The notes under the pieces are model-generated. The model was not told the DNA's origin and ran no database searches. It worked only from the letters and a program-made list of their open reading frames with translations. A DNA stretch of 64,000 bases, taken from the IMG/VR virus record IMGVR_UViG_3300006793_000015, positions 1-64,000 of that record. One strand, written 5' to 3'. The translations under genes were made by a program, and so were the position numbers. Within the stretch, counting starts at the first letter, position 1. Each line of letters starts with the position of its first letter. This DNA comes from a virus. Below are positions 14,958 to 34,497 of this stretch, piece after piece.

Positions 14958-14958
14958 A

Positions 14959-16047: not shown

Positions 16048-16055
16048 GTCCGCAA

Positions 16056-16879: not shown

Positions 16880-18502
16880 TTATTTTGTTGGCGGGGGTGG
16901 CGCTTTAGCCATTGTGAATACTTTTATACCGTATGCTTCTTCAAAGCGTTTTGCGTCTTGAAAATTATTTACTACCGGCTCTCCCCTAATGTTTAAACTG
17001 GTATTAAGTAACATAGGACAGCCTGTGTAATATTCCCACATTTTTAATAAACTTCTTATCTCAGGATTATCATTAGGACCTACAGTTTGAACTCTGCTGG
17101 TGCCATCTGCGTGAACTATGGCAGGGAAGTCTTTTGGGTGTTTACACTTTGCTGTATATTGCATATAAGGTGAGCTAAGTTTTGTTCTGTTACGAAATAA
17201 CTTTATACCGTGTAATACCACGTAATCAGAATTGTCTGGATTGGGCGTAAATTCAAATGTTGCGGGCATTTCAAAGTATTCGTCTGCTTTCTCTTCTAGT
17301 ATCATTGGAGCAAATGGACGAAACTTTTGTCTACGCTTTATCTCATTTACCTTGTCTTTGATATGTTTCCCACGCGGATCTGCTAACAAACTTCTATTAC
17401 CTAAGGCGCGTGGTCCAAACTCTGCTCTACCGTTAGCAACACCTACGATATTACCCTCTAATAATTCTTTTAACAACTCTACTTCAGGGTATTGACCTGG
17501 TATGTTATATCCTAAATATGGACTCTCCCACCTTAACCTCTTACCGTATGCTAATGCGGCGGCTCCTAAACTACTACCAGCATCGCCCGGGTTAGGCATA
17601 ATCCAAATGTCGCTCCAATTTTTCGCTATCTTTGAATTAGCGACACAATTTAATGCAACTCCACCCATGTAAACTAAGTTTTTAGACTTACAACTTATCC
17701 TTGCATGGGCCATAATATGCCCTACAACAAACTCTAATACTTGTTGAGATGAAGCGGCAATATCATAATTGTCTTGTTCTTCCATCAACTCGTCGGAGCG
17801 CCAGCCTGTTCCAGCGTGTAAGTTTTCTTTCATGCGTATAATATTCTTACCATTAATATCCCAAAACGTATCCATCAAATCTTTTGTATACATTGGTAAC
17901 CCATATGCCGCCATTCCCATTAAGATATATTCTTCGTCTAATGGGCGCAGGCCTACGCGATCAGTCATAGCACTATAAAATAAACCAATACTGTTTGGAT
18001 ACTTTGCGCCCCACACTTTCTTATATTGTGCTTTGCCGTTTCTGTCATACTCTGCATCCCATATGGTAATGGTATCCCATTCTCCTATTGCATCAATGAC
18101 CACTACAGTTGCATCAGCAAATGGGCTTGTTTGAAACCCGGCGGCCGCATGGGATAAGTGATGCCCGTAGTATTTAAATTTACAGTTTTTCCCCACAACG
18201 CAATTAGTTTGTTCTTGTAACTGCTTGCGTATGTTAATATTATCTAAATCAAAAAAGTCTGCCCACTGCCCAGAATATGCTTGGCGAGTTTTCTTAAGCC
18301 AGGGATTTTCGTAGTATGCGACTATTTCTAAAGGACTATTACTAAAACTTAAAGCATCTTTTATTAGGCCGGGGTTTAAATTCTTATCGTGTTTTTTCTT
18401 ACTGTAACGTTCAGCATGTCCTGCAAAAAGTATAATGCCGTCGTTGTCAATTAAGCTAGCTGCGGCGTCATGAAATCCGTAACTTACTCCCAATATTGTC
18501 AT
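16880..18502 (-). CDS. Carbamoyltransferase, NodU/CmcH family
   Basis: 540 aa. It has the N-terminal GVSYGFHDAAASLI and the metal-binding HHLSHAAAGF (about residues 115-124) of the Kae1-like domain, which makes carbamoyl-adenylate from carbamoyl phosphate. The C-terminal domain carries GRAEFGPRALGNRS (about residues 362-375) and LNTSLNIRGEPVV. Members O-carbamoylate sugars and antibiotics; examples are NodU and CmcH. The length is normal for the family. It overlaps the upstream SGNH hydrolase gene by 35 bases. In this island it would add a carbamoyl group to a glycan or related product. Confidence 0.92.
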   Translation of the reverse strand: MTILGVSYGFHDAAASLIDNDGIILFAGHAERYSKKKHDKNLNPGLIKDALSFSNSPLEIVAYYENPWLKKTRQAYSGQWADFFDLDNINIRKQLQEQTNCVVGKNCKFKYYGHHLSHAAAGFQTSPFADATVVVIDAIGEWDTITIWDAEYDRNGKAQYKKVWGAKYPNSIGLFYSAMTDRVGLRPLDEEYILMGMAAYGLPMYTKDLMDTFWDINGKNIIRMKENLHAGTGWRSDELMEEQDNYDIAASSQQVLEFVVGHIMAHARISCKSKNLVYMGGVALNCVANSKIAKNWSDIWIMPNPGDAGSSLGAAALAYGKRLRWESPYLGYNIPGQYPEVELLKELLEGNIVGVANGRAEFGPRALGNRSLLADPRGKHIKDKVNEIKRRQKFRPFAPMILEEKADEYFEMPATFEFTPNPDNSDYVVLHGIKLFRNRTKLSSPYMQYTAKCKHPKDFPAIVHADGTSRVQTVGPNDNPEIRSLLKMWEYYTGCPMLLNTSLNIRGEPVVNNFQDAKRFEEAYGIKVFTMAKAPPPPTK

Positions 18503-19476: not shown

Positions 19477-20281
19477 AAATTAACTCTGCCGCATCTGCGT
19501 GTCCTTTTTCTAAAGGATGTGATGTAGCGTATTCATAATTATTTATAAGTCCCCAGTCATTAAAACCAATATACTTGCTTGTCGGCCAGTCTCCGGGAAA
19601 ATGATACCAAGAATCTTGGTCAATTGTTTTTCTCAAACTAGTAACGTATTCGTTAGTCTCATCTTCAAATAATTGTTTAGGAACATGATACCCAGTATAA
19701 GCAAATATATGATTAATATTATGAATTTTTAAGAAGTTTTGAAGTGAGAATATATCTTTTAAACTTGAGTATACGTCATCTTCGTCGCTAACAATATTAT
19801 ACCATGCTTTACCAAAGTCTACTACGCCCGCACCTTTGTAAATATTATACTTGTTTTCTAAGGAAAACTTGGTGCTTGCGTAATTGGGCGTGTCGGGGTG
19901 TATCTTTTTAAACCAGTCTGATTTTGCCTCGTTCGTAGCACAATATGGATCCAAAGCTAACCATTCCGAATCTTGTTTATACATTAGATCATTTAACGTT
20001 CCGTTGATTAACTTAAATTCTCTTCTTGCTACAAATGTCCACATAATTTGAACAAAAATATTCTCTGGTAAATACCCATTCTCTAATGCCTTATTGACCG
20101 TGTATAATATACGTCGAGTAATAAAAGAATTGCTTCTACCACTGGAGGCTGTATTGATATGCATATGGGCATCTAATTTTTTAGAAACTAAATTAGCCCA
20201 GCATAATTCACTAGGGCCTCCGGCATCATCCGGAAGTTCTGCACCGAACGTAAAACTGTCACCACCGGATATAACTAACAT
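19451..20281 (-). CDS. SGNH/GDSL-like hydrolase (second copy)
   Basis: 276 aa. The serine block is ISGGDSFTFGAELP (residues 4-17), the middle block is TASSGRSNSFITRR, and the C-terminal His block is HPLEKGHADAAELI. It shares GDSFTFG and HPLExGH with the copy at 18468-19136 but is longer by about 50 residues. Probable esterase or acyl-transfer activity on a sugar or peptide is inferred from the fold. Its ATG abuts the stop of the upstream unknown gene (TAA then ATG). Confidence 0.75.
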   Translation of the reverse strand: MLVISGGDSFTFGAELPDDAGGPSELCWANLVSKKLDAHMHINTASSGRSNSFITRRILYTVNKALENGYLPENIFVQIMWTFVARREFKLINGTLNDLMYKQDSEWLALDPYCATNEAKSDWFKKIHPDTPNYASTKFSLENKYNIYKGAGVVDFGKAWYNIVSDEDDVYSSLKDIFSLQNFLKIHNINHIFAYTGYHVPKQLFEDETNEYVTSLRKTIDQDSWYHFPGDWPTSKYIGFNDWGLINNYEYATSHPLEKGHADAAELIYEHIEKIL

Positions 20282-21367
20282 TTAACGCATTTCCTTAATT
20301 GACATATTTTTAAAATCCTCATCATGCCAAAAATAGTCATACGTGGCACTAGCGTCTGATGTTCTTATTTTATAAACATCTAAATAATCATTCATTACAT
20401 ACCAAATTAAATATGGAATGTCTGTATTAAAAGACTTTTGTAAGTTAACCTGTCCTACTTGTGGATGTCCTAGTGTTAATGTTGGGTCTTTAGGATCTAA
20501 TCCATTCTTCTCTAACCAGGCGACAAATTGGTTAATCTGGTCCATTGACTGAGGAAAATCTGCCTTTCTGGACCAACTAATATCGAAATCGCCGGCAGCT
20601 TTTGTTTGTGTTCTGCACGACGTAGTCACCACATCGTCTAACATACTATCCGGTCCTTCGTCTGTAAAAACTTCCCAATGTGATTTTCCGATTGCCTTGT
20701 TTATACCTACATATACACCACCAGGTGCTTTTAGTAATGAGTCGATGCCGAAGCCTTCAAAGTCCGCTTCATCTACTAAATCAAATCTTGGTGAATTCAG
20801 CCAGCACATTAATTGTGACTTCTGCATCCATTCAGGTGCTTGAACTAACTTACGGTTAGTCAACGCCCATGTCTCAAACTCATGGCATAATAAATTAAGT
20901 TGTCTAATGTGATACTTCTCTTCCTTAGTTGCGTTATGGTAATGCTCGGTCATTGATGTGGATGAATCGCCAGTGTCTATTCCTTGTAATTCTTCAAACC
21001 ATCTATGTAACCAATTAAATCTGTCATGATTAATTGTTAGTCCAGAATGCCCGAATCCTACTTCTCCATAGTTGATACAATTTTCCATTGTAAATGGTTC
21101 TGTTTCTATATGGTAATCTAATGAACTATTATTAATAGACAACACTGTATCGTTAATCTCATCAAGTATTAATTGCCCGTTGCGTTTACTATTCATAAAA
21201 CCCATAAAGCAATAGTTCTTTTCGAGTATTAAATTGTCGTTAAGTATTCCGTTTAATGCTGTGAGCCATTTGCGGCTTAGCCCTGTGTCGTATATATCAA
21301 TATAGACATCCATAGTATTATAATGTCTGGTTCTTAACGTCATTACAATTTCATCTAGTTTTTTCAT
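20282..21367 (-). CDS. Unknown protein, 361 aa
   Basis: Not recognised. It is soluble and rich in Trp, His and Asp, for example GHSGLTINHDRFNWLHRW near residue 105, HEFETWALTNRKL near residue 163 and FDISWSRKADFPQ near residue 265. The conserved-looking HxxFxWLHxWFEELQG and HQxxxxxHEFExW patterns suggest a metal-binding or helical core. The co-directional neighbours are an SGNH hydrolase and a methyltransferase, so it is probably another part of the island's pathway. Confidence 0.6.
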   Translation of the reverse strand: MKKLDEIVMTLRTRHYNTMDVYIDIYDTGLSRKWLTALNGILNDNLILEKNYCFMGFMNSKRNGQLILDEINDTVLSINNSSLDYHIETEPFTMENCINYGEVGFGHSGLTINHDRFNWLHRWFEELQGIDTGDSSTSMTEHYHNATKEEKYHIRQLNLLCHEFETWALTNRKLVQAPEWMQKSQLMCWLNSPRFDLVDEADFEGFGIDSLLKAPGGVYVGINKAIGKSHWEVFTDEGPDSMLDDVVTTSCRTQTKAAGDFDISWSRKADFPQSMDQINQFVAWLEKNGLDPKDPTLTLGHPQVGQVNLQKSFNTDIPYLIWYVMNDYLDVYKIRTSDASATYDYFWHDEDFKNMSIKEMR

Positions 21368-21385: not shown

Positions 21386-22243
21386 TTATGTATTTTCTAA
21401 TAGATAAAAAGATTTACGTCCTGCTTTTCTCGGTGGAGATTCTCCGCGGCCAATAAATGACTGGTAATCATAATATTTTTTTACTTTCCATCCTTGGTCT
21501 TTGACAAAAAAATCAATAGCGTTTCTTGATGGCATTAAACCAGTAACTGAAGTATATGACATCATAGATTCGTCGGTTTGTTTAGGTTTCCATACCTCAA
21601 AGTGTCCGTTTTCAAAAATATCATCCTTTACCGTTGATTCTAAAAATAAGTATTTTGGTCTAATCACTTCTTTAACATGCCTAATAACATGAATACCGTT
21701 TTCTAAATAATATAATACATCAAGCATAAACACTACATTTACTCTATCTAAATTAATATTCTTTCTTGGTATGTGCCTATCTACTGTAATAAATTCGTTG
21801 TCAACGGTAGTTAGTGTAGAATCTATAGACATTGTATGATTAGTTATTTTATCTGTTAGGTTACATATACTAGCAAGTTCCTTTCCTAGTGTTGATCTAC
21901 GCATGTTTGGTTCAATTGAAGTTATTTCTTTCGCACCGATCTGCGCCGCCCACACAGAAAAAAAACTAAGATTGGATCCAAGATCAAGTATTGTAGCATC
22001 TTTAATTATGTTTTTACATAATATATAATACAAATAATATCGAAGTTTATAGCATTCTGGAAATTCCCATGACGCTGTAGATGTATCATAATCAGAAAAC
22101 TGTAAATTGGGCTTGTCAAAAAATTTATGGAAAATATAATTAATCTCAGGTAAAAATGGCATATTGAGTTTATTTAATTCATCAAAATTAATGTCAATTA
22201 CTGAATTAATTTTTTGTAAATTTAAGATACTGTCTTTTTTCAT
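21386..22243 (-). CDS. SAM-dependent class I methyltransferase
   Basis: 285 aa from the ATG at 22243, which overlaps the upstream radical SAM stop as ATGA. A TTG five codons earlier is rejected. The SAM motif is ILDLGSNLSFFSVWAAQIGA (about residue 90), with an acidic residue at the end of strand two (SIEPNMRR) and a post-motif VNVVFMLDVLYYLENG. This is a small-molecule type methyltransferase. It follows the seven radical SAM genes directly and may methylate their product. Confidence 0.78.
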   Translation of the reverse strand: MKKDSILNLQKINSVIDINFDELNKLNMPFLPEINYIFHKFFDKPNLQFSDYDTSTASWEFPECYKLRYYLYYILCKNIIKDATILDLGSNLSFFSVWAAQIGAKEITSIEPNMRRSTLGKELASICNLTDKITNHTMSIDSTLTTVDNEFITVDRHIPRKNINLDRVNVVFMLDVLYYLENGIHVIRHVKEVIRPKYLFLESTVKDDIFENGHFEVWKPKQTDESMMSYTSVTGLMPSRNAIDFFVKDQGWKVKKYYDYQSFIGRGESPPRKAGRKSFYLLENT

Positions 22244-23541
22244 ATAGTGTTCCACCAATTTAAAATATCCCTTTGAAGAATATTATTAATATTATAACTG
22301 GTTTTACGCAGATTGTCAATTTTTTCCATGCGTTGCTTGCCTTTTAAAAGGCCTTCCTCGTATTCGTTAGGCCATTCTTCTGCGAACGTTGGTCTTTCTT
22401 TTAGATTTTTTAATACATCTATTAGCGGTTGTTGTTTCCATGTTGCCTCCCTGCATTGTTCTAATAATTCATCTACTTTATCGTTTAATAAGTTACGCGG
22501 TAAACACATTGGACTCATTATAATGTCCGGCGTAAAAGCAAAAGTAACCTTCGCTAATAACATTGTATCTAACTCCTTACTCAAATCAAACATATTTTTT
22601 ACTTCGTATAGCCCGGGTAAAGTTAAAGTAAAGTCTAAACGCATTTGGTTTGGATGTTTTTGTGCCGCCATACCTTGTTTATAGTAATCTAAAAACTTAC
22701 TCCATTCCAATCCATCGCGTATATATTCTCCTATAGGACCAGTGCCATCTATTGAGGCACATATTTGCCAATCACGTATGTTACATAATATGTCATTGTA
22801 TAAATGTACGCCTTTATACTCTATACGAGATAAGTTTGTATTATATCTTGCGTATACTTTACCACCATCTCCCTGTTCTATAATCTGTTTCATATACTTC
22901 CAATGTTCTTCAAACATTAGAGGTTCACCACCTACCCAATATATTTCCTCTACTCTGCCCTCTGCTACTGCATCGGCAAACTCTTTCTCTACTACTTGCG
23001 ATTGGAATTCGCTTATTTGTTTTCTTACAGTTGGATCCATCCAATTGTTCTTTGGATCGCTATAGTTAATCATATCATTGCTACGTTGCTCTGTTTCCCA
23101 ACTGCTACTTAACATATCGCCACACATACGGCACTTAAAGTTACATAGGTTACTAAAGCGATAGTCCCAACTTACTGGCTTCATCGTAGTGTAGCCTGTT
23201 TCGTCCGTGCTTGCTACTACTTCGTCGTATTTGTGTTTAAACAAATTCCAAAAGTAATCTCTATATACGTCTGTGTTTAGTAACTTCTTGTTACATACTT
23301 GGCAAGCATCTATCTCTTCTCCTGCCATATGTGCTCTACGCACACTTTTCATATACTCGCTGTTCCAATGTTCTTCTAACGTTATTGGATTGTATTCTCC
23401 TGTGCCTGCTTCAGTGTCTATATACTGCTTAAAACTTTGTGCGGGTTCTCGCGAAGCACAACACAATCTACGTTCTGTTTGCGGACTTAGGTAAGTATGC
23501 ACCCATGGCGCCAAACACATGTTTTCGGGCTTTGTATTCAT
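22240..23541 (-). CDS. Radical SAM protein 1 of the cluster, N-terminal SPASM/twitch-like module
   Basis: 433 aa. It begins with a cysteine module: CLAPWVHTYLS at residue 9, LCCAS near residue 27 and CQVCNKK near residue 80, like SPASM/twitch domains that bind extra Fe-S clusters. The radical SAM core follows, with CNFKCRMCG near residue 132 and GGEPLMFEEHW near residue 202. The core generates a 5'-deoxyadenosyl radical from SAM. Similar enzymes modify peptides or small molecules. It is coupled to the methyltransferase downstream and overlaps the next radical SAM gene by 4 bases. Confidence 0.88.
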   Translation of the reverse strand: MNTKPENMCLAPWVHTYLSPQTERRLCCASREPAQSFKQYIDTEAGTGEYNPITLEEHWNSEYMKSVRRAHMAGEEIDACQVCNKKLLNTDVYRDYFWNLFKHKYDEVVASTDETGYTTMKPVSWDYRFSNLCNFKCRMCGDMLSSSWETEQRSNDMINYSDPKNNWMDPTVRKQISEFQSQVVEKEFADAVAEGRVEEIYWVGGEPLMFEEHWKYMKQIIEQGDGGKVYARYNTNLSRIEYKGVHLYNDILCNIRDWQICASIDGTGPIGEYIRDGLEWSKFLDYYKQGMAAQKHPNQMRLDFTLTLPGLYEVKNMFDLSKELDTMLLAKVTFAFTPDIIMSPMCLPRNLLNDKVDELLEQCREATWKQQPLIDVLKNLKERPTFAEEWPNEYEEGLLKGKQRMEKIDNLRKTSYNINNILQRDILNWWNTI

Positions 23542-24890
23542 TGGTTATTCATAGGTGGCAGGCACTTATTGTATTCGTAACCAATATACTCTGATAATAC
23601 CGGATCTACTTCGTTTAACGTCTTAGTTCTCATGCTGTCTACTCTCGCAGTGTCAGTTAACATACGATCCGTATGGTCTTCATCATCTTTAATATTTCTC
23701 AAATCAGTGCTATGCATGTAGTTAATAAAAGAATCAATTTCTTTAACATTATCAAACTTACTGTCTATTAACTCTTGCCAGTTGTATGCTCTCAACTTAT
23801 TTGCTATAATGTTCTTTATTTCGGGAGTATGCATTTGAATGTTATAATGTAACGGATAGTGCATCAAGTTCAAATACCAAGAGTCTAAATTTTTAATTTC
23901 TTTGATCCAATCAGCAACATCTGGTAAATTATGAAAGTTAAATAAATTAAGAGTAGTGCAAATCTCTGTTTCTATATTACTTGGCTTGTTTCCGGAAATA
24001 TACTGAATATTGTTGTTTACTTCATCCCATTTTGCACCGTAACGTTGATACTCGAACTTATCGCCGATGTCGTCAATGCTAAAAGAAATTCTACAGTGTT
24101 TAAAATGTGGCAGAATATTATGGTATTCGTGTTTTGGTAATTGTGTTCCGTTTGTGTTGTAATGTATGTTAATGTCTTTAGAGTGGCCGCTTTCTATTAG
24201 TGTTTCTAATACTTGGAAATGCTCTTTAATCATCCACGGTTCTCCTCCCGTAAACTCCAAATGTTTTACGTTAGGTAATATCTCTTTAAGATCTTCCCAA
24301 AACTGTGGGTTCTTACGCGGCCATTCACCTTGCTTTAAATAATAGTATGCGGGTGTTTTCTTTGTATCTTCTTTCTTAGCACCGTAAAACTTAATACCCA
24401 TTTTTATTTCTTCTTCCGCCCACTTACTGCTACTCCAAGAGCCGCATATTCTACACTTTAAGTTACATATGGTTCCTAATTTTAAATCTAAGTACGCAAT
24501 ATCTTTCTCTGTTACATCTTTATCAAATATATTTTTTATTTGTGGTAGGTGATGTGAGAAATAGTGAGCCCAGTTTATGCGCTTACTTTCTAAACCTGCG
24601 CCTTCTTCATCCCAACACTTCTTACAAATCTCAGGCTTTTTGCCATCTAAAAATTCTTGTCGTAACTGTTGCATGTCAGTACTGTTAAACGCATCCGTAA
24701 TAGTATCGCCATTGTTTAAATTGTATGGATCTTCCGTGCCTTCTTTATAAACAGGCCCTTCTGCCATACAACAAGGCTTGAGCCAACCCTTAGCGTCTGC
24801 TTCCATATGCATAAAAGGAAGATAACACAATGTAGGAGTTTTTTCAAATGACTCTGCTTGCTTTATAACTTGCCTCAGTTTTTCGTTCAT
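23538..24890 (-). CDS. Radical SAM protein 2 of the cluster, N-terminal SPASM/twitch-like module
   Basis: 450 aa. The N-terminal cysteine module has LCYLPFMHM near residue 21, KPCCMAEG near residue 38 and ICKKCWDEEG near residue 85. The core motif is CNLKCRICG (near residue 141), and LEFTGGEPWMIKEHF (near residue 215) is the SAM-binding GGE motif. It lacks the FSNLCNF context of copies 1 and 3 (GTICNLK here), so it is the most divergent of the first four. It overlaps the genes on both sides by 4 bases, favouring coupled translation. Confidence 0.88.
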   Translation of the reverse strand: MNEKLRQVIKQAESFEKTPTLCYLPFMHMEADAKGWLKPCCMAEGPVYKEGTEDPYNLNNGDTITDAFNSTDMQQLRQEFLDGKKPEICKKCWDEEGAGLESKRINWAHYFSHHLPQIKNIFDKDVTEKDIAYLDLKLGTICNLKCRICGSWSSSKWAEEEIKMGIKFYGAKKEDTKKTPAYYYLKQGEWPRKNPQFWEDLKEILPNVKHLEFTGGEPWMIKEHFQVLETLIESGHSKDINIHYNTNGTQLPKHEYHNILPHFKHCRISFSIDDIGDKFEYQRYGAKWDEVNNNIQYISGNKPSNIETEICTTLNLFNFHNLPDVADWIKEIKNLDSWYLNLMHYPLHYNIQMHTPEIKNIIANKLRAYNWQELIDSKFDNVKEIDSFINYMHSTDLRNIKDDEDHTDRMLTDTARVDSMRTKTLNEVDPVLSEYIGYEYNKCLPPMNNQ

Positions 24891-26137
24891 AATTGGATTA
24901 GTTCCGGAAATGTTTCCTTAAAATTCTCATCTCGTATTGCATCTATTTGTGCTGTAAGTTTTAAGAAGTCTTGTAGCAATTGTTCGTTAGCAGTTTGATT
25001 AATGAAGTTAATAGCACTTTCATAACCGTTCGTTGCTCGTTGCAAGCCGTCCAACGGTCTAATGTATTCAATATGCTCCTTGTATTTAGCGACTAGTTTT
25101 TCCTTAAGATTATTTGGTAGATTGTCTATACGATAGTGTGGTGGATTCATTAATATATTAATGTTAAAGTCTTGTGCGTTAATAAATCCTTTGTCCATCC
25201 AATCTCTATGGAAGTCCGGCATATGGAAACTGTTTAGTATGCTTAACGTACAACTAATATAAAAGTCTACGTTAGGGCATATTTCTAACATGCGTTCTCT
25301 GTTACGCTCTGTTTGGTCCCATACAGTTTCTTTGCGTATGTATTCACCGCGTGGTCCCATTCCATCTAAACTTGCTCCAATGCTTACACTATTAAACAAC
25401 TTCCACATCTCTAATACATCTTGTTTCTTATAACGCAATTCGCTAAAGTTTGTATTATAAATTAACTTTACATCAAAGCGTTCTAAACGTATTAGTTCTT
25501 CAATGATCTTCCAGTGCTCTTCCATCATAAGTGGTTCGCCACCAGCAAAGTATATTTGCTCTACGTATGGCATATGGCGTTTTGCTTCTCGATAAAAGTC
25601 TTTTGTATCGCCACAGCGGATTATTTTTGGATGGTCAGGCTTACTGCCGTGTAACTTCTCATAGTCTTGATACCAGTTACTGCTAAACAATGGGCCGCAA
25701 GTTCTACATCTAAAGTTACACAAATTGCTAAACCTTACGTCCCAATATATAATCTCAAACTCTGGATCTACTGTGTTTGCTTTGTTAATGTGATGCCCGA
25801 AGTGTTTATTGGCACTTACTCTACCGCTCATAAAGCCATTGCGATCCTGTTCGTAACACTTGCTACACTCTTTTAACTTTTTACCTGCAAGCATATCTTG
25901 CCGTATGCTTTGCATCTTCTCACCATGCCATATATTTTCCAGTGTAGTATCTTTAAGTGTTCCTAGTGGCATGTCCATATCTGACATACAGCATAAGTGT
26001 ACAGTGCTGTCCGGATAGGCGTGTATATGTGTCCATGGGTATATACAAAACGCTTCGTTCTCTGTTAATGCAATACGCTCGTTGTCTGTTAAATCTTCTA
26101 GTTTAACATATAGCGGTGCTTTCTCGTTATAATCCAT
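24887..26137 (-). CDS. Radical SAM protein 3 of the cluster, N-terminal SPASM/twitch-like module
   Basis: 416 aa. Motifs in order: FCIYPWTHIHA (near residue 31), HLCCMSDMDMPLG, CSKCYEQDRNG, then the core VRFSNLCNFRCRTCG (near residue 145) and IYFAGGEPLMMEEHW (near residue 200). The region FAGGEPLMMEEHW is encoded by a 47-base stretch (25511-25557) identical to 26763-26809 in the next gene, so these two are close paralogues or recombining copies. It overlaps its upstream neighbour by 11 bases. The substrate is unknown. Confidence 0.9.
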   Translation of the reverse strand: MDYNEKAPLYVKLEDLTDNERIALTENEAFCIYPWTHIHAYPDSTVHLCCMSDMDMPLGTLKDTTLENIWHGEKMQSIRQDMLAGKKLKECSKCYEQDRNGFMSGRVSANKHFGHHINKANTVDPEFEIIYWDVRFSNLCNFRCRTCGPLFSSNWYQDYEKLHGSKPDHPKIIRCGDTKDFYREAKRHMPYVEQIYFAGGEPLMMEEHWKIIEELIRLERFDVKLIYNTNFSELRYKKQDVLEMWKLFNSVSIGASLDGMGPRGEYIRKETVWDQTERNRERMLEICPNVDFYISCTLSILNSFHMPDFHRDWMDKGFINAQDFNINILMNPPHYRIDNLPNNLKEKLVAKYKEHIEYIRPLDGLQRATNGYESAINFINQTANEQLLQDFLKLTAQIDAIRDENFKETFPELIQL

Positions 26138-26809
26138 CCATTAGTTCCTTTAGTTCCGGAAACGTTTCAACAAAGTTTTCGTTTCTGTATTGGTCATACT
26201 TGCGTATTTCTTCTCTAAACTTTGGTAGCAAGTCTGTTCTATCCTCTTGTTTTAAGAAGTTTATTGCTCCTGTAAACCCGTTTGATGCTCTCATGATGTC
26301 ATCATTAAAGTTTATTTTTTCTATATGGTCTTCATATAATTGTACTACTTCTTCTTTCATTTGTTGTGGTAAAATAGTTAGTCTGTACCACTCTGGCCCT
26401 TGCAACACATTAACGTGAAAATCGTATGTTTCTATTAATCCTTGTTGTATCCACTCATTATGAAAATCTACTATATGGTATGCGTTTAATGCCTGTAGCG
26501 TAGCACTCGCAAAAAAGTCTACTGTAGGACATATAGATAACATTTCTTCTCTGTTACGCACAATATTGTCCCACTTAGTTCCTTTACGTATGTACTCTGC
26601 CCTTGCTCCCATTGCATCTAAACTTGCACCCACAGACACGAGTTCAAACTCCTTCCATGTTTCAAATATATTACGCTTTTTATACTTTGTCTCACTAAAG
26701 TTCGTGTTGTAAATAAGTTCTACGTCTGTTTTACCACGCTTTAGTAGTTCATCTATTAAACGCCAGTGCTCTTCCATCATAAGTGGTTCGCCACCAGCAA
26801 AGTATATTT
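25511..26809. repeat. 47-bp exact repeat shared by radical SAM copies 3 and 4
   Basis: Bases 25511-25557 and 26763-26809 are identical over 47 positions, in the region encoding FAGGEPLMMEEHW on the minus strand. Flanking codons differ. Complete identity including third positions suggests recent duplication or gene conversion between tandem copies. Confidence 0.85.
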
Positions 26810-27443
26810 TATGTAAGTTATCTATATACGGCTCTACCATTTCCCAGTTTAATTGTTTACTACCGCGGGTATAATTAATAATTGGAACTTTACGATTGTA
26901 CATACTGTTTGATTCTTTTGCCCAACTACTACTAAACTGTGGCCCACACATTCTACAACTAAAATTACATTGATTACTAAATCGCATATCCCAATAAAAA
27001 ATGTTTGGATCTGCACTGCCATCTTCATATGTGTTGTCTATATAATCTACAGCATATGCAAAGTTTCTATTGCTTTCATTACGTAAACTAAAAAGAGAAG
27101 ACTTTTCTAATTCGTAACATTTTTTACAAGTGTCACTGGGTTTGTCTTGCAACATATTGAGACGAAGTTGCTTCATGCTTTCGCCATTCCATACTTCCTC
27201 AAAAGTATTTTTCCGTAAGTTGCCCACTGGAATTTCCATATCAGCCATACAGCAAGGATAAGCATTACCATCAGTCCAGCCGTGTAAATGTAACCACGGC
27301 AACATACAAAAGTGTTTACTGCTCGTTAGTAAATTATAATGCTCTGTAGTAAATTGGTGTTGCTCTAGTTTTTGTTTATTTCTATCAAGCAATAATGATT
27401 TACTGTTGTGAGGTGTATCCTCGCTTAGATATCCTTTATCCAT
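26127..27443 (-). CDS. Radical SAM protein 4 of the cluster, N-terminal SPASM/twitch-like module
   Basis: 438 aa. Motifs in order: FCMLPWLHLHGW (near residue 47), YPCCMADMEIPVG, EEVWNGESMKQLR, TCKKCYELE, the core MRFSNQCNFSCRMCG (near residue 158) and IYFAGGEPLMMEEHW (near residue 216). It is the nearest relative of copy 3 in motif spelling and in DNA. It overlaps copy 5 by 8 bases. The EvWn...Rxxxl pattern between cysteine groups is typical of SPASM-like modules, here placed in front of the core. Confidence 0.9.
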   Translation of the reverse strand: MDKGYLSEDTPHNSKSLLLDRNKQKLEQHQFTTEHYNLLTSSKHFCMLPWLHLHGWTDGNAYPCCMADMEIPVGNLRKNTFEEVWNGESMKQLRLNMLQDKPSDTCKKCYELEKSSLFSLRNESNRNFAYAVDYIDNTYEDGSADPNIFYWDMRFSNQCNFSCRMCGPQFSSSWAKESNSMYNRKVPIINYTRGSKQLNWEMVEPYIDNLHKIYFAGGEPLMMEEHWRLIDELLKRGKTDVELIYNTNFSETKYKKRNIFETWKEFELVSVGASLDAMGARAEYIRKGTKWDNIVRNREEMLSICPTVDFFASATLQALNAYHIVDFHNEWIQQGLIETYDFHVNVLQGPEWYRLTILPQQMKEEVVQLYEDHIEKINFNDDIMRASNGFTGAINFLKQEDRTDLLPKFREEIRKYDQYRNENFVETFPELKELMDGL

Positions 27444-28803
27444 TTAAACTATTATACCAGTCTGCTAGGCGTGGGAACGTCTCTGTAAAGTTCTTTCCTC
27501 TACGCTCATCGTATTGTTTATAAAAATGATAGAAGTCATTGTGTAACGCAGGCTTTTCAAATGTATCACTGTGCGGCGTTTCCACTACATCCAAGTAGTC
27601 TATTAATCGCTCTACATGATTGCGTTCCATCTCCTGTAACAGTGGATTGGTTTTTGCTTTACTATACCAGTTTTGTAAATCTCCCCTAAACTCTGCTAGT
27701 GTTTCTTTTGGCAATATTAACGGAGATTGGAAACTTGGAAAACGTAAAATGTTCAGTGTAAACGTAGGACGATCTGATCCATATGTCTCTTTAAATTCTA
27801 TTTGCTGTTGTAAAAACTCCGGTAATGAGTTTAAGCACAATGCGTTAATAGTACACATCATATGGAAACCTTCTAAATTTCCATCTGTACAAACTTTGTG
27901 GCAGTTATCTACCCACCTGTTCCATTCTAATCCGTCACGTATATACTCTGCATGTGGACCCATTGATTCACAACTCGTGTATAAATGTAGATGTTTAATA
28001 GATTGTGCGTTTTCTATGAATCGATTTATTAAATCGTCTTTTCCTCCGAGGTTACTGTTAATAGCGAGACGCATGTCTGGCTTAACTGAGCCCTCTTTGA
28101 ACTTATCAAATAGTTTCCATACATCATCGGACATCAATGGTTCACCACCTGTAATACGGAGTTCGTCTAATGTTTCATGTAATTCCTCATCCCACCACTT
28201 CCAGAACGCTTCAACATACGGATTGTTTTCATCCTTTTTATATAATTGAGCGGAAGGGTGGGAATGAGTGAAATGATTACGGCCATCGCTAATTAGATTT
28301 TCGTAAGGGCCGTCTTTTTTGATGTCTTTTACCCAGGTGCTACTAAAAGCAGGATTGCAATAAGAGCAACCAAAGTTACAAGTCCGGTCAAAGGCGGCCT
28401 CGAGAGTACGTAAAGCAAAATTCTCTGTAGGTAACTTATTTTTAACATAATTAACATCCTCCTCGTCATAAATGACTGACTTATGGACACGATCCGAAAT
28501 CGAATCAGGCCCAATATCTTCAATCTTCCAACAATATTCGCAACCTGCAGGACGCTGTCCTACTAGCATATTGTGTCGATCTTTCTTTTTTTGGGATGTG
28601 TTATGAATAGCTGCTGGATTTGACTGAAGTTCTGTTACATCTATTTCGTGGGCGGGCGGATGATGACAACTTGTCGTCATTCCACTGCCTAACCATATTG
28701 TAGCGTTCCTCCATTTTGCCATACAAAAAGATGGACTTACATTAGTATTTAGCCACTTTTTTACTTCTAAATCAGTCTCTCTACCGGGTTTTCTTAATGT
28801 CAT
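27436..28803 (-). CDS. Radical SAM protein 5 of the cluster, HHPP subtype
   Basis: 455 aa. The N-terminal module is altered: FCMAKWRNATIW (near residue 26), then TTSCHHPPAHEID instead of a CC pair, then GCEYCWKIED. The core is TCNFGCSYCNPAFSSTW (near residue 142) and LRITGGEPLMSDDVW (near residue 218). It shares the HHPP-type module, an HNT...KK segment and a CNP-type core with copy 7, so these form a second subfamily. It abuts copy 6, an unrelated architecture, and overlaps copy 4 by 8 bases. Confidence 0.9.
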   Translation of the reverse strand: MTLRKPGRETDLEVKKWLNTNVSPSFCMAKWRNATIWLGSGMTTSCHHPPAHEIDVTELQSNPAAIHNTSQKKKDRHNMLVGQRPAGCEYCWKIEDIGPDSISDRVHKSVIYDEEDVNYVKNKLPTENFALRTLEAAFDRTCNFGCSYCNPAFSSTWVKDIKKDGPYENLISDGRNHFTHSHPSAQLYKKDENNPYVEAFWKWWDEELHETLDELRITGGEPLMSDDVWKLFDKFKEGSVKPDMRLAINSNLGGKDDLINRFIENAQSIKHLHLYTSCESMGPHAEYIRDGLEWNRWVDNCHKVCTDGNLEGFHMMCTINALCLNSLPEFLQQQIEFKETYGSDRPTFTLNILRFPSFQSPLILPKETLAEFRGDLQNWYSKAKTNPLLQEMERNHVERLIDYLDVVETPHSDTFEKPALHNDFYHFYKQYDERRGKNFTETFPRLADWYNSLNG

Positions 28804-29823
28804 TTAGAACCTCATTACTGTTTCTTCGTTAATTTCTGTTGATTTGCACTTTAATTTGCATATATCTAACTTGGGAATATTGGCTATAAACTGTGTCCAA
28901 TAATTAGTGTTTAAAACGGACTCTAATCCACTTTGTTTTATATTTTTATCTTCTGTTTGCCACTCTGCGTATGCTTTATCATTATATCTATCTATAATCC
29001 AACAGCACGGATAAAAATACCCTCTGCTGTCTACAAACAACCCCTTTGTGCCTATAAAACAATACGGGGTTATATCTCCAATTGGTGTTTGCTTTTTATA
29101 TATTTCTCTTGCTGTCTTAAAACTGTCGTCGTATATTTTTCTATCAGTAAAACGTATTGTATTACTTTCGTATCTACCAGACTCACTAATATATTCTTTA
29201 ATAGGATCTAAAGAATCGTCGTAGTGCTCGTAAAAGAAATTAAACTTATTACTTTTAGTTTGTCGCATTGCATCGAAGCCTAATTCCTGTGCAAGATTTA
29301 CCATATGGTCTACGTGTTTATAATTAAAAGAAAAATAAATCATATCCCACACTAGTCGTACGGGACCAATACGCAATGTTTCTATTCCTTCTATTATACT
29401 ATTCCAATTACTGTTTACTCTATACTTCTCATTGCTTTCTTGATCATAGCCATCTAAACTAAAATGAATTTGGTCGTATTTGTTTAAGGTTTTTCCTAAC
29501 TCTAACCACCAGTCAGTTTTTTTATAACTACCATTGGTTACAATATTTAACTCTACTTTTTGATTATTACTTTTAAAGTATTCGCATATTTCTATAAATT
29601 CTTTGTTGTAAATTGGGTCGCCGTCATAGCCACAAAAAGTAACTCTTTTCGTTTCTTGTAAAATATCTTTAGTAAAGTTTTCTTTAAAAAAATTTAAATC
29701 TAAATTATCTATTACTAATGTTTCTGGTTTTTCTGTTCTAGAGCAACGCGGACACTTTAATGTACAAGCACTTGTAAGTTCAAAATGCCAATGCCATAAT
29801 GGCCAGTTAAAGTCATTTCTCAT
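28804..29823 (-). CDS. Radical SAM protein 6 of the cluster, conventional SPASM architecture
   Basis: 339 aa with the usual order: the radical SAM core first (HFELTSACTLKCPRCSR, near residue 20) and C-terminal SPASM-like cysteines (YCFIGTKGLFVDSRG near residue 254, PCCWIID near residue 272, and CKLKC near residue 322). In place of GGE it has CGYDGDPIYN near residue 62. It is closer to general SPASM radical SAM proteins than to its six neighbours. It sits between copies 5 and 7, overlapping copy 7 by 4 bases and abutting copy 5, so it may have been inserted between two related genes. Confidence 0.85.
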   Translation of the reverse strand: MRNDFNWPLWHWHFELTSACTLKCPRCSRTEKPETLVIDNLDLNFFKENFTKDILQETKRVTFCGYDGDPIYNKEFIEICEYFKSNNQKVELNIVTNGSYKKTDWWLELGKTLNKYDQIHFSLDGYDQESNEKYRVNSNWNSIIEGIETLRIGPVRLVWDMIYFSFNYKHVDHMVNLAQELGFDAMRQTKSNKFNFFYEHYDDSLDPIKEYISESGRYESNTIRFTDRKIYDDSFKTAREIYKKQTPIGDITPYCFIGTKGLFVDSRGYFYPCCWIIDRYNDKAYAEWQTEDKNIKQSGLESVLNTNYWTQFIANIPKLDICKLKCKSTEINEETVMRF

Positions 29824-31262
29824 GCCTGTGCTAACCTCTTACATTCTTTCCACCAATCTACCATCTCCGGGAAAGTTTCTAGGAAGTTTGTTCCTCTGCG
29901 TTTATCGTGTTCGTTAAAAAATCTATAAAAATCTGCTTTACAATCTCTTACATATTGCTCATCTAGTTTACTGCCTTCTTGCCACCATGCTAAATCTCGT
30001 TGCATACGTTGGACTTCATAATCCTTAAAACCTTTAAATCTTGTGCTTTCGTCCTCCATATTATCGAGCATCCAACATACATTATCATCATGAATCATTT
30101 GGTATGACTCTGGCAATAACTGTACGCTCTGCCAAGCTGGTTGCCTTAGTAGCGGAGTATCAAACCATATACGTTGATACGTATCACTATATGCTTGTCT
30201 TAATCCGTGTATTGCTGACAACAGTTTGTCTAAACCCGTTACACTCAAATTATTATACGTAATGATAAATGTAACACTGTTTCTATATGGAATCTCTGTT
30301 AAAAATCTATTGATGTTATTCCACATTCGATTAAAATCTAAGCCATTTCGTATATATTCTGCTTGCTCCATCCAACTATCAACACTAATGTACTGCATAA
30401 AGTGTTCTACTTTTTCATCTAAGCAAATGGGTTTAATCGCTTCAATATATTTGTCAAACAGTTTATCTTCCACAGAGAAGTTACTTGTTACGTTGAGGTG
30501 TAGGTCACTCTTTGGATTTGCGTTAATGTAATCAAATACTTTGTAAGTATTTTTATCCATCAAAGGTTCGCCGCCTGTCATTCTAAAGTGTTTTAAATCT
30601 TTATATAGATCAGGCCACCATTTCCAAAATGCTTCTACATATGGATTATATTGACTGTGGGGAATACAAGCACGGCTTCCTGTAAAGTGTTCAGGTGCGT
30701 TATGTGGAGTTTTAGTGGGCCATGCTCCAAATTGTTTTGTTTCCTTTTCCCACGACGTGCTAAATTGAGGTGAACAGTAACTACACTTTAGATTACAGTT
30801 ATGGTTAAAGTTAACCTCAACATAGCGTGGGTTCTTATCTGCATCCCATGGCGTGTTAAGTATAGTTTCAAAGTCCATATGTGCCCATGGTTCACCACTT
30901 CTGTAGTGCCTGTCGCTCATATGTCCTGTATCTTCTATGTTCCAACAGTACTGACATTCTTTTGGACGTTCGCCTTTGATCATCAATTTACGCATTTCTT
31001 TTTTGTGTTGCGTGTTGTGTAGTGCGGATGGATTTACTTTAACTGCTTCTGCATCCATTTTATGGAGTGGAGGATGATAGCAACTATTATTATATCCTGT
31101 TGGCAAATGTAAACTAACTTGGTTCCATTTAGCAAGACAAAAGGATGGCGAAACAGAGTCTAACTGCTCTTTAATATTTTCGGCACTTTTATAAAAGTCG
31201 GATTTAAATTTTCCGTCTTTTACTTCTACTTTGTCGCCCTTATTGTCTTTATATAGTTCCAT
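29820..31262 (-). CDS. Radical SAM protein 7 of the cluster, HHPP-like subtype
   Basis: 480 aa, the largest copy. N-terminal module: FCLAKWNQVSLHL (near residue 42), NNSCYHPPLHKMD, HNTQHKKEMRKLM, ECQYCWNIEDTG. The core is HNCNLKCSYCSPQFSTSW (near residue 156) and FRMTGGEPLMDKNTY (near residue 231). It closely parallels copy 5 and also ends in a RRGTNFLETFPEM-type motif, a segment shared by copies 3, 4, 5 and 7 (NFxETFPE). The start overlaps the glycosyltransferase-like stop by one base, so it is part of one tightly packed transcription unit. Confidence 0.9.
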   Translation of the reverse strand: MELYKDNKGDKVEVKDGKFKSDFYKSAENIKEQLDSVSPSFCLAKWNQVSLHLPTGYNNSCYHPPLHKMDAEAVKVNPSALHNTQHKKEMRKLMIKGERPKECQYCWNIEDTGHMSDRHYRSGEPWAHMDFETILNTPWDADKNPRYVEVNFNHNCNLKCSYCSPQFSTSWEKETKQFGAWPTKTPHNAPEHFTGSRACIPHSQYNPYVEAFWKWWPDLYKDLKHFRMTGGEPLMDKNTYKVFDYINANPKSDLHLNVTSNFSVEDKLFDKYIEAIKPICLDEKVEHFMQYISVDSWMEQAEYIRNGLDFNRMWNNINRFLTEIPYRNSVTFIITYNNLSVTGLDKLLSAIHGLRQAYSDTYQRIWFDTPLLRQPAWQSVQLLPESYQMIHDDNVCWMLDNMEDESTRFKGFKDYEVQRMQRDLAWWQEGSKLDEQYVRDCKADFYRFFNEHDKRRGTNFLETFPEMVDWWKECKRLAQA

Positions 31263-32188
31263 TACCAGCCTTCAATTTGACGTATTACATCCAACTCTTG
31301 TATCATAATGTCGTAGTTAGTATGTGTGCTATAATGTGCTTTGAAAAACTTACTTGCTTCAGCATCCATTTCGCATATAGGCATACCTAGTTTGTTTTGT
31401 AGTATTTCGCCTAGTAACTTTGCTTCTTGTTCTGGATCCTTAGATGCGTATTCTGCGTTAAACATTTCTGTGAGATACTTAAAGTCTCTTACATTTACAT
31501 AGTTCCAGTCTGTAAGCATAGTTAAAAATGTGCCTAAACGTGCTCCATATATTGCCCAATTGCCGTGTTCAATATCGCGTCCAACAGTTTGCCAGATGCA
31601 TAGATTGTCGTAGTTACGTGCGTGAATTGCTTTTTCAAATGTGTCAAGATCAGGACGCTTGCCTTGGTCTAACACCATTTTGACGCCTTCTCTAAACCCT
31701 GCTCGCCATGCGTGTAATTCTGATCCATTTGGATATGTTGTGCTATAACAGTTATGCATTGCCTTGTAATTGTCATCAAAGCAAAATTCAACCAATGTTT
31801 CATCTCTGCCATCAGTGTTTTCATGTGACTTCATATTCATTACAAACTCAACTGGCCAACAACTTAACCCACCATTGCCATACATTAGTCCGTTTATAAT
31901 ATTGCGTCCTTTCCATCTAAAAACACAATCCTTTGTAGCGTCATCTATTGTAAGTTGCAGGTTAAAGAACTCCGGGTCAGGCATATTGTCTCCGTCGATT
32001 AAAACAAAACGTTCTGTGTCACTTGCCTCTGCCGCCGCTTTGTGTGCCGCATCGGATCCATAAACACCATCTACGTGTTTTGCCCACGGAACCATGTTAA
32101 GTATCTTAGCCCAAAACTCGTCCTTCTGTGGTTCATCATATGTTAAGTAGATGCAGTCTAAATCTGCCACATCAACTATCTCAGTCAT
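31262..32188 (-). CDS. Glycosyltransferase-like protein (DGD motif)
   Basis: 308 aa from the ATG at 32188, which has GAGGAA 7 bases upstream. A TTG at 32203 is less likely. The region RFVLIDGDNMPDPEF (near residue 66) carries a DxD-like nucleotide-sugar/metal motif after DCIYLTYDE, as in GT-A folds. A later stretch SELHAWRAGFREGVKM matches the C-terminal region of the 1011-aa protein at 11352-14387. It is the presumed active relative of that domain. It overlaps the upstream 75-aa gene by 8 bases. Confidence 0.65.
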   Translation of the reverse strand: MTEIVDVADLDCIYLTYDEPQKDEFWAKILNMVPWAKHVDGVYGSDAAHKAAAEASDTERFVLIDGDNMPDPEFFNLQLTIDDATKDCVFRWKGRNIINGLMYGNGGLSCWPVEFVMNMKSHENTDGRDETLVEFCFDDNYKAMHNCYSTTYPNGSELHAWRAGFREGVKMVLDQGKRPDLDTFEKAIHARNYDNLCIWQTVGRDIEHGNWAIYGARLGTFLTMLTDWNYVNVRDFKYLTEMFNAEYASKDPEQEAKLLGEILQNKLGMPICEMDAEASKFFKAHYSTHTNYDIMIQELDVIRQIEGW

Positions 32189-32408
32189 TAAATGTTTCCT
32201 CAAATAACTTTGCTTCTGTTGGACGCCTAAATGTTACTCTAACTCCATCAGCGTAAACTTTATCGTCTACTTTAAACTCACCTTTACAGTTTGTTTGGCA
32301 CCACTCTTTAACAGTCCTGTAAATTTTAACTGCTTCTTTAAATTCTTTGTTTTTAATTACTTCTCCTTGCTGTGCTTCCCAAGGATATTTTGCGTGTTTT
32401 GTTACCAT
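32181..32408 (-). CDS. Hypothetical protein, 75 aa
   Basis: A small soluble, charged protein with one long amphipathic helix (NKEFKEAVKIYRTVKEWC) and a C-terminal beta part (KVYADGVRVTFRRP). It has no recognised family. It is preceded by AGGAATCAATA before the ATG at 32408. Its last bases overlap the glycosyltransferase-like start in ATGACTGA. Close packing supports that it is real. Confidence 0.55.
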   Translation of the reverse strand: MVTKHAKYPWEAQQGEVIKNKEFKEAVKIYRTVKEWCQTNCKGEFKVDDKVYADGVRVTFRRPTEAKLFEETFND

Positions 32409-32431: not shown

Positions 32432-32821
32432 TTATTGTAATTGATAATAACTTTCGTCTCTATTAAACATCACCTGATCTGGATCAATGACATGTTTAAT
32501 TAACCTATGATCCTTCTCTGTTACTAAAACTGGTTGACTATGATCTAACTCCGAAGCGTGTGTTACTTGTCTATACTTTGACGCTGAACTGCTATGTTTT
32601 TCTATAGGCTTTAACTTACCATCTTCGACAGTCCAGTCAGTGATAAAGTTATTCTCTGGCCAGTTCCATGGAACTTTTATATAACTTAATTCTTCTCTTT
32701 CTTCTGGCGATGCCTCGTATATTTTACCTGCATCATCATAGTATAAGCAATAGTCTGGCTTTTCCTTTTCACTATAGTCAAAGCCTTCCAATGCTTCTAA
32801 AAACTCATTAAGTCCTTTCAT
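32432..32821 (-). CDS. Hypothetical protein, 129 aa
   Basis: An acidic, soluble protein with several Trp/Tyr (YIKVPWNWPENNFITDW near residue 47). It lacks signal peptide, membrane segment or known motif. Its start overlaps the glycosyltransferase-like gene upstream by 14 bases, and 23 bases separate its end from the next start. No function can be assigned. Confidence 0.55.
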   Translation of the reverse strand: MKGLNEFLEALEGFDYSEKEKPDYCLYYDDAGKIYEASPEEREELSYIKVPWNWPENNFITDWTVEDGKLKPIEKHSSSASKYRQVTHASELDHSQPVLVTEKDHRLIKHVIDPDQVMFNRDESYYQLQ

Positions 32822-33671
32822 AGTACTCTATTGTTTTATCAGCCAAGTACTCCTTACATTCAGCACCATGTACTGGATATATTTGTGGCTCAACACCAAT
32901 AAGTAGTCCAATGCTATCACTATAACTTATATTAACAACATCCTCTATCTTATGCTGTTCGGGCCACTCTAAAATGCTTGGCTTTAAATGTACAAACGTT
33001 GGATAATCCAATACGCTGTTAGTAGCAGTATACTCTTGCTCCTGTAATACTAACGCAATGGCTAACGCAACATCTGTTGTGGGTTTACTGTCTCTACAGT
33101 TTTTAATATTCTCTGTTACAGTATTCCAGTTCTTGTAAACCCATTTAAGTGTTTTAAACAGTTTTAAACTTTCCTCGCCGTAACGAAAATACATAAACCC
33201 ACTATACGCATTAGGCAGTTCGTTTTCATCAAATACTTTTCTGTATTTGCGCGATGTAGCAATGCTTCCATCTAACTTGCGAACGTTTGTAGCAATAAGC
33301 ACTTCCTGCTCACGCATAAACGTCCACCAGTGGTCAATGTTTCTCGTAAACACTAAGTCACAGTCTATCTTAACTGTTTCTTTAAATGGTGTTATTGCCC
33401 ACGCTTTCCACTCGTTACCTAACTTCCAACTATCTTCTTCGCTTTCATCTCCCCACGGTATGTCTATAACGTAGTCAAACACTTCGTGGTGCTTATCCTC
33501 TAAACACTGTTTAGTCGCTTCGTCTACTGCTACGGCAAATTTGTTTATACGTTGCGTTGCCTTTAAACTTAATCCACATGCGTAAGCAAGTTTTAAATAG
33601 TCTGTTGTCTCATTGTTTTGAACAAAAGTAAAATATCCTAGTTGTTCGTTGTGATCTTTAATTCTCTTCAT
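32808..33671 (-). CDS. Glycosyltransferase-like protein, GT8-like (DCD motif)
   Basis: 287 aa. It carries KIDCDLVFTRNIDHWW (near residue 103), a DxD motif after a beta-strand in the form seen in GT8 and related retaining GT-A enzymes. NAYSGFMYFR (near residue 150) resembles the family's acceptor-site segment. VKIDCDLVF aligns with the LLLDVDYLMF of the next gene, so the two are probably related. The sugar donor and acceptor are not predictable. It overlaps both neighbours. Confidence 0.7.
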   Translation of the reverse strand: MKRIKDHNEQLGYFTFVQNNETTDYLKLAYACGLSLKATQRINKFAVAVDEATKQCLEDKHHEVFDYVIDIPWGDESEEDSWKLGNEWKAWAITPFKETVKIDCDLVFTRNIDHWWTFMREQEVLIATNVRKLDGSIATSRKYRKVFDENELPNAYSGFMYFRYGEESLKLFKTLKWVYKNWNTVTENIKNCRDSKPTTDVALAIALVLQEQEYTATNSVLDYPTFVHLKPSILEWPEQHKIEDVVNISYSDSIGLLIGVEPQIYPVHGAECKEYLADKTIEYYERT

Positions 33672-34497
33672 TTGGTGTATGGATTAAAGTAGGCTGTGTT
33701 GCATATCTTATAATACTATTAGCATGTTCGAGTATGCTATACTTGTTCATAATATGTAAATTAGCATTGCGTATCATCGATACTTCGTTGTCAAACTCAT
33801 AAACTACCATACCATCTTCTCTAACATCTGTTAAAGTATGCTGAGAAGGTAAAGTAAGGAGGGAGTTGTCGAAATAACCTTCTAAACTTAAAAGGTTATA
33901 TGCAATACTTATAGCATAATCGTTGCGGTATGGCCCTTTCTTGAAATTATATAGATTGTAATAATACATATAATTTTCTTTTACCGTACTCACTAAATCG
34001 AAAAATGTTTTAGCAGTTTCTCCTTTAGTAAAGTATAACACGGTTGCCCACAGCATGGGTATGCTACTCCAATGCAATAACTTATCATCAATAAAACTAT
34101 TCTTACCTGTTATATCAAACACATTCTTATGGCATACTAACTCTTCTTGTGTTTCGAATATTCCTTGCAACGAATTGTTAAACATTAGATAGTCTACATC
34201 TAATAGTAAAGTTTTTTGGAATGGAGACAATTCGTATGCTAATGGTCTAGTTTTATTGTGCCATGTAAGTTCTTCGACTTCTCCCTCGGGGTTTCTAAAC
34301 GTTCTTCTTCCGCTATTGCCAGCATCAATATGTATTACGTGGTCAAACGGTCCATCGACAGGATTGTTAGTAACTAACGCTATTCCTGTTCCTGGTAAAT
34401 GTTTGCGTACTAACAAAGCACAAATAATGGCGAGATTTGTGTAACTTATTGATTCGTTATCATACGCAAATAATAATACGCCTTTATCATCGGGCAT
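33658..34497 (-). CDS. Glycosyltransferase-like protein, GT8-like (DVD motif)
   Basis: 279 aa. An N-terminal VLLFAYDNESISYTNLAI segment leads a GT-A-like fold, and KTLLLDVDYLMFNNSL (near residue 98) holds the DxD motif. It shares the general layout of the 287-aa neighbour. The family-level role is transfer of a sugar from a nucleotide donor. It overlaps the next gene by 14 bases, and its ATG overlaps the upstream stop (TAATG), so it is probably co-translated with the promoter-proximal 117-aa gene. Confidence 0.7.
   Translation of the reverse strand: MPDDKGVLLFAYDNESISYTNLAIICALLVRKHLPGTGIALVTNNPVDGPFDHVIHIDAGNSGRRTFRNPEGEVEELTWHNKTRPLAYELSPFQKTLLLDVDYLMFNNSLQGIFETQEELVCHKNVFDITGKNSFIDDKLLHWSSIPMLWATVLYFTKGETAKTFFDLVSTVKENYMYYYNLYNFKKGPYRNDYAISIAYNLLSLEGYFDNSLLTLPSQHTLTDVREDGMVVYEFDNEVSMIRNANLHIMNKYSILEHANSIIRYATQPTLIHTPNEEN

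Follow-up and report, generated by a model that had tools for sequence, protein, structure and literature searches.

A conserved jumbo-phage cassette of radical SAM and glycosyltransferase genes behind tail-fibre genes, with a possible role in building an unusual glycan

The window (the whole stretch of DNA analysed, 64,000 nucleotides) is part of a 114,469-base IMG/VR record and contains seven contiguous open reading frames on the minus strand (positions 22240-31262), each encoding a radical SAM (rSAM) protein (R7 to R1, in order of transcription). Adjacent genes share 4-11 bases or abut, and the coordinates, the overlaps and the presence of CxxxCxxC in all seven proteins are as given in a preliminary description of this DNA; the motif occurs exactly once in each protein. 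Genes for the baseplate wedge, the giant protein and the fibre come directly before the array. Features are listed below in order of transcription; locus counts refer to the best 80 of at least 599 candidate loci.

53123..56518, minus strand: baseplate wedge subunit (PHROG 10646, 998 bits)
38331..53114, minus strand: giant virion structural protein, 4927 aa (PHROG 10938, 1088 bits)
35957..37495, minus strand: fibre-like protein (cluster in 38 loci)
34893..35804, minus strand: Ser/Thr-rich (33%, by composition) conserved protein, encoded immediately ahead of the cassette (50 loci)
33658..34497, minus strand: G1, glycosyltransferase-like, homologue of G2 (profile-profile comparison with G2: probability 99.7%, E 3e-26)
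32808..33671, minus strand: G2, GT8/glycogenin-like glycosyltransferase (family profile against PDB: glycogenin-1, E 3.7e-4)
31262..32203, minus strand: U, conserved glycosyltransferase-like protein (GT2/GT-A-like, weak; PF13641 in 5 of 32 family members, best E 0.0036)
29820..31262, minus strand: R7, N-terminal-twitch radical SAM, first gene of the array (NF033640, 324.6 bits)
28804..29823, minus strand: R6, an inserted gene for a radical SAM protein with SPASM at the C-terminus, outside the N-terminal-twitch family (CxxxCxxC at 20; no NF033640 match)
27436..28803, minus strand: R5, N-terminal-twitch radical SAM (NF033640, 312 bits)
26127..27443, minus strand: R4, N-terminal-twitch radical SAM, paralogue of R3 (NF033640, 408.7 bits; 46% identity to R3)
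24887..26137, minus strand: R3, N-terminal-twitch radical SAM (NF033640, 402.7 bits)
23538..24890, minus strand: R2, N-terminal-twitch radical SAM, the fastest evolving of the array (NF033640, 361.7 bits)
22240..23541, minus strand: R1, N-terminal-twitch radical SAM, last gene of the array (NF033640, 283.7 bits)
21386..22258, minus strand: methyltransferase-like protein (weak; PF13489, E 7e-4, below cut-off)
20282..21367, minus strand: V, conserved protein (52 loci)
19451-20281 and 18468-19148, minus strand: two DUF6071/SGNH-like genes with a small gene between them (PF19547, E 1.3e-7 and 2e-4)
16880..18502, minus strand: O-carbamoyltransferase, NodU/TobZ type (PF16861, E 8e-52; PF02543, E 3e-38)

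The baseplate wedge subunit is closest to those of the jumbo phages Atu_ph07, Munch and GAP32 (about 35% identity over the full length), with Agrobacterium phage Atu_ph07 the nearest cultured relative by this protein; the fibre-like protein resembles Atu_ph07 gp176 by inspection. Because the wedge points to jumbo phages rather than T4-like ones, and the giant protein to virion PHROGs, the earlier label "T4-like" is only loosely right, and judging by these proteins a better name for the phage would be jumbo myovirus, with Atu_ph07, GAP32 and Munch as relatives. The late T4 promoter pattern TATAAATA occurs at four sites in the window, all on the minus strand and fewer overall than expected by chance; three of the four precede fibre or Ser/Thr-rich genes, and the sites are not kept in relatives.

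All seven array proteins are radical SAM proteins, as first described, with a GGEP motif at the expected distance in six of the seven, but they are not one family. R1-R5 and R7 match the NCBIfam model NF033640 (N_Twi_rSAM, radical SAM with an N-terminal twitch domain) at 283.7-408.7 bits over nearly the full profile (curated cut-off, 170 bits), whereas R6 has no match to this profile and is an ordinary rSAM/SPASM protein. Within R1-R4 the Pfam SPASM match lies N-terminal of the core (below cut-off in R1), and this match is absent from R5 and R7; an invariant N-terminal cysteine is present in all six N_Twi proteins. The auxiliary domain of the aminoglycoside enzyme BtrN aligns weakly with positions 18-95 of the N_Twi profile. 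An AlphaFold model of R4 (pLDDT 89.5) has CteB, anSME, viperin and MoaA as best Foldseek matches, with SuiB and BlsE also matching; this fold, being as near to peptide maturases as to MoaA, viperin or BlsE, leaves the substrate unsettled.

The six N_Twi paralogues share 22-46% pairwise identity and are thus old rather than the product of a recent amplification. R3 and R4 (46%) alone look, by identity, like a younger duplication, common to the nearest relative (locus L013). Recent tandem amplification is ruled out for most of the array, as R1, R2, R3/R4, R5 and R7 form separate clades that recur across contigs (support for the R1 clade is low, 0.28).

To survey relatives, loci were gathered by a scan with the six-protein profile (rSAM-anchored set) and by a second scan anchored on U, chosen to avoid circularity; each set comprises the best-scoring 80 of at least 599 candidate loci, and the two lean towards close relatives, overlap and have contigs in common. 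Nearly all of the best 80 rSAM-anchored loci carry several N_Twi genes. Within these best 80 of at least 599, R7 orthologs occur in 71 loci and U in 67; counts for R5 and R1 orthologs (best 80 of at least 599 candidates) are 73 and 67. Assignment to the nearest paralogue gave the order R7-R5-R3/R4-R2-R1 repeatedly across loci, and on the tree exactly this order is found in 46 of the 56 best-scoring loci that hold all five clades, against a chance expectation of about 1 in 120. In L013, R3, R4 and an R6-related gene stand at matching places, and all proteins compared with that locus are under purifying selection (pN 0.09-0.33, pS 0.65-0.87), including R2, which has 52.7% identity to its L013 ortholog.

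The preliminary description had raised the possibilities of motif loss and of an assembly error, and had proposed a synteny search. CxxxCxxC is intact in all seven proteins and in 423 of 424 proteins across the five clades, and the ordered cassette recurs in many related phages; dozens of contigs show the same gene order independently, so that the array cannot be put down to an assembly artefact. Recurring order, intact motifs and purifying selection together exclude both an artefact and decayed paralogues. Two loci filed as bacterial MAGs (L103 and L109) carry the phage cassette and are probably phage contigs. Cellular homologues mostly occur singly, in mixed surroundings that suggest no pathway, and we reject the idea that the array copies one cellular pathway. 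A tblastn search among cultured phages gave no match for R7, U, V or the Ser/Thr-rich protein. The claim that phages carry rSAM genes one or two at a time does not hold: published phages carry 8-12, and 23 whole IMG/VR records related to this one have 6-21 NF033640 matches each.

Clustering of neighbouring genes defines a cassette of fibre-like protein, Ser/Thr-rich protein, G1, G2, U, rSAM array, V and carbamoyltransferase, the last in 53 loci (best 80 of at least 599). The earlier description of the flanks stands for the glycosyltransferase-like genes, with G2 matching glycogenin-1, and much less for the methyltransferase, whose Pfam match falls below cut-off; from profile matches, glycosyltransferase identity is firm for G2 and weaker for G1 and U. 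Linkage of these genes to the putative tailoring enzymes is strict, as a glycan cluster would have it: within the best 80 of at least 599 candidate loci by the U-anchored scan, the order G1-G2-U holds in 80 of 80, and N_Twi genes follow U in all 55 whose downstream sequence reaches 7 kb or more, 49 of these having no fewer than three. R7 is the steadiest companion, found in 53 of 55 glycosyltransferase-anchored loci with enough downstream sequence. Related loci also carry APS-kinase-like, UDP-sugar dehydrogenase and epimerase genes, and an amidinotransferase with AGAT/StrB1/SxtG matches (cluster in 15 loci, best 80 of at least 599). For V, a structural model (pLDDT 87) found no PDB match with E < 0.1, and we therefore propose no function; its structural relatives are phage proteins only, one of them from Atu_ph07.

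A conserved ordered set formed by six of the seven rSAM genes, behind tail-fibre genes and beside sugar-transfer genes, makes a sugar-type decoration the most likely role, rather than a one-off oddity. Our preferred reading, held tentatively and at somewhat less than an even chance, is that these seven genes form the central part of a cassette, conserved in jumbo phages, for making and tailoring an unusual glycan, which would most likely sit on the tail-fibre proteins encoded just upstream; the Ser/Thr-rich protein is a candidate virion protein and acceptor. The multi-step pathway proposed earlier is supported by gene order and synteny. Of its suggested products, a modified peptide or glycan, the glycan is the likelier from its context (two GT8/glycogenin-like genes, a weak GT2-like gene and a carbamoyltransferase), though not decisively so. 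Counting against a glycan, the matches that mark G1 and U as glycosyltransferases are weak when each is taken alone, and the mixed contexts of standalone cellular homologues suggest no pathway.

That the glycan is placed instead on the host envelope (LPS or capsule), excluding competing phages, is unlikely. Pelagimyophages carry GT8-type genes together with rSAM cassettes in a host-recognition cluster, and O-chain modification has been proposed for the GT8 genes (PMC7029224); but a position directly behind fibre genes in many phages suits virion decoration better, and an unsystematic look recognised no membrane transport, flippase or ligase genes in the cassette. Radical SAM enzymes and carbamoyltransferases also occur in DNA hypermodification, and the 114,469-base record has a further small group of rSAM genes near another of its regions. 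Judged on this fragment of a phage genome, hypermodification of phage DNA, nucleotides or tRNA is nevertheless very improbable here, the cassette being syntenic with tail genes and not with DNA metabolism.

A more serious alternative, which we still regard as rather unlikely, is that the rSAM enzymes act in a RiPP-like manner on a virion protein (fibre or Ser/Thr-rich), cross-linking, epimerising or oxidising side chains or backbone, while the glycosyltransferases glycosylate the same protein. The predicted R4 fold, as near to the SPASM peptide maturases CteB, SuiB and anSME as to the other matches, would favour this reading and count against a glycan, as would the rSAM proteins of Atu_ph07, which look by their matches like peptide maturases. 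At the same locus, Atu_ph07 encodes three rSAM/SPASM genes and a structural-like protein, gp170, whose C-terminal end reads CHSSCHASCHNSRSRR (also written FCHSSCHASCHNSRSRR; tag pattern CHxSCHxSCHxSRxRR), and Phosso, SURPRISE13 and DT01 likewise combine a cupin gene, an rSAM gene and a gene for a tagged protein. The DNA pattern of this tag (PHROG 35144, function unknown; no NCBIfam model) matched at least 120 stretches in IMG/VR. Among the 80 stretches examined of these at least 120, the tag is exactly C-terminal in 99 of 99 open reading frames; conservation of its letters is partly built into the search pattern, of which the C-terminal position and the neighbours are independent. Where a locus has a single copy of the tag and its sequence extends far enough upstream (48 loci), an rSAM gene lies at most 60 bases upstream of the tagged gene in 37, a cupin gene precedes that rSAM in 33 of the 35 tag loci with more sequence, and at least two N-terminal domain types bear the tag. 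The adjoining rSAM proteins have the peptide maturases PapB, DynA and DarE as best matches; alternatively, the run of CH pairs could be a metal-binding tip.

With unrelated rSAM systems at the same tail locus, action of the array on a virion protein gains weight. Against it, the Atu_ph07 rSAM proteins are only remote relatives of N_Twi, the CHxS tag is absent from the window and from the array loci examined, and the linkage to glycosyltransferases is strict. Nor do the overlapping or abutting array genes leave room for a RiPP precursor gene, none of which was found inside the array. Two conserved small proteins of the cassette have no obvious precursor core motifs.

For the radical-tailored glycan, gene presence, family, intact motifs, gene order, linkage to glycosyltransferase-like genes and the place beside fibre genes are observed, whereas we infer the chemistry, its substrate, the sequence of steps, the product and the attachment site as follows. 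G1, G2 and U would place sugars on the acceptor. In R7, R5, R3/R4, R2 and R1, the core [4Fe-4S] cluster would cleave SAM to a 5'-deoxyadenosyl radical, and the N-terminal twitch cluster would help to pass electrons or to bind the substrate. The enzymes might each alter a different C-H position by oxidation, epimerisation, dehydration or rearrangement, comparable to the twitch enzyme BtrN, with carbamoyl and other groups added afterwards. More tentatively still, a jumbo-phage lineage may possess an assembly line, with five orthologous rSAM enzymes and three glycosyltransferases, for a new radical-tailored tail-fibre glycan, with several such radical systems, unrelated to one another and including the CHxS-tag one, occupying that locus.

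For 15 years phage gene sets with multiple rSAM genes have been remarked on as "highly unusual", with no function assigned to them. Conserved order, strict glycosyltransferase linkage and a fixed place behind fibre genes together point to a defined pathway whose product can be tested for, since a sugar or residue in modified form is predicted on the virions. In that case, phages would apply radical chemistry to their own receptor-binding apparatus, which bears on host recognition and enzyme discovery. Literature searches found no virion proteomics or chemistry for these phages; in the cultured phages Atu_ph07 and Phosso, radical modification at the tail locus is testable now, and the CHxS-tag system may be the stronger lead.

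Several known systems resemble the cassette in part. Campylobacter phages CP220 and CPt10 have 11 and 12 rSAM genes, including a five-rSAM module with an amidinotransferase that is interchangeable between the two phages (PMC2853527). Direct examination of CP220 showed five rSAM genes close to its baseplate genes, together with the amidinotransferase and two genes resembling nucleotide-sugar transferases, an arrangement like that of the window. The rSAM proteins of these phages differ in their shorter length and are related to N_Twi only remotely (relatives of R6 also occur in Campylobacter phages, weakly), and they have not been described as an ordered conserved array. The marine T4-like genome TARA_ERS488813_N000010, likened here by its published description, has 12 rSAM genes, which its authors read as iron-sulphur metabolism, without array or synteny analysis (PMC5332604). 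Pelagimyophages, which are smaller than the window phage, gain and lose rSAM cassettes in a host-recognition region that is comparable in both its gene types and its location (PMC7029224). Atu_ph07, Phosso, SURPRISE13 and DT01 likewise keep several rSAM genes next to tail genes, and for Atu_ph07 and Phosso the locus, made up of giant structural protein, fibre and rSAM module, is the same, but with another rSAM subfamily, a cupin and a CHxS-tagged protein in place of glycosyltransferases; Aeromonas phage 332-Vera, with eight rSAM genes within a structural cluster (PMC12390700), is grouped with these by published description. Aminoglycoside tailoring (BtrN, TobZ, StrB1) also includes a twitch rSAM, an O-carbamoyltransferase and, as in some loci here, an amidinotransferase, a likeness by enzyme type only; no aminocyclitol scaffold genes were recognised in the cassette. 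The NF033640 model covers individual proteins, to which it gives no function, and not an ordered array of five orthologs and glycosyltransferase genes, and no description of such an array was found in the open-access literature searched. The cassette is made of known families and is of a kind already seen in phages; it is real, widespread and conserved, and in the literature searched it had not earlier been defined as a system.

CHxSCHxSCHxSRxRR is a modular C-terminal tag of small virion-like phage proteins, lying exactly at the C-terminus in 99 of 99 ORFs (80 loci, from at least 120 matching IMG/VR stretches) and joined to at least two N-terminal domain types. The usual setting is a trio of cupin, radical SAM/SPASM protein and tagged protein, in that order. 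Tagged proteins are encoded at:

L137 21119-22009, Atu_ph07 gp170
L138 6415-7335
L139 7667-8227
L140 6046-6582
L141-L220, further tagged proteins

No earlier description of this tag was found, as far as the literature search reached; it may form the tip of tail proteins, either carrying a radical modification or binding metal.

The T4 late-promoter sequence TATAAATA (window sites 35938, 37580 and 37591, minus) occurs below chance frequency in the window, where three of four sites precede fibre or Ser/Thr-rich genes; conservation of the sites was looked for in relatives and not found.

Protein V (window 20282-21367) is conserved in 52 loci among the best 80 of at least 599 candidates, and resembles phage proteins only. 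Its AlphaFold model is confident, and a PDB fold search with this model returned no match with E below 0.1. Fibre, glycosyltransferase, U (glycosyltransferase-like) and radical SAM genes of the phage cassette also occur on L103 and L109 (genome_contigs). These two contigs are catalogued under MAGs of Rickettsiales and Neomarinimicrobiota, and are probably phage contigs that were misbinned.

The genes of window 11352-16059 are likely additional tailoring genes, and include:

14388-14957, possible sulfotransferase (weak match)
14959-16059, ATP-pyrophosphatase/asparagine-synthetase-like gene (weak match)
within 11352-16059, 1011-aa protein with a domain common to its family and U

A smaller second radical SAM group, two radical SAM-like genes close to the contig end, lies elsewhere in the same record (L012 2350-4984; record 106350-108984).

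An AGAT/StrB1/SxtG-like amidinotransferase (L052 16287-17327) lies near the array, and its cluster is found there in 15 loci among the best 80 of at least 599 candidates. As in such loci, the module of Campylobacter phage CP220 has an amidinotransferase alongside radical SAM genes.
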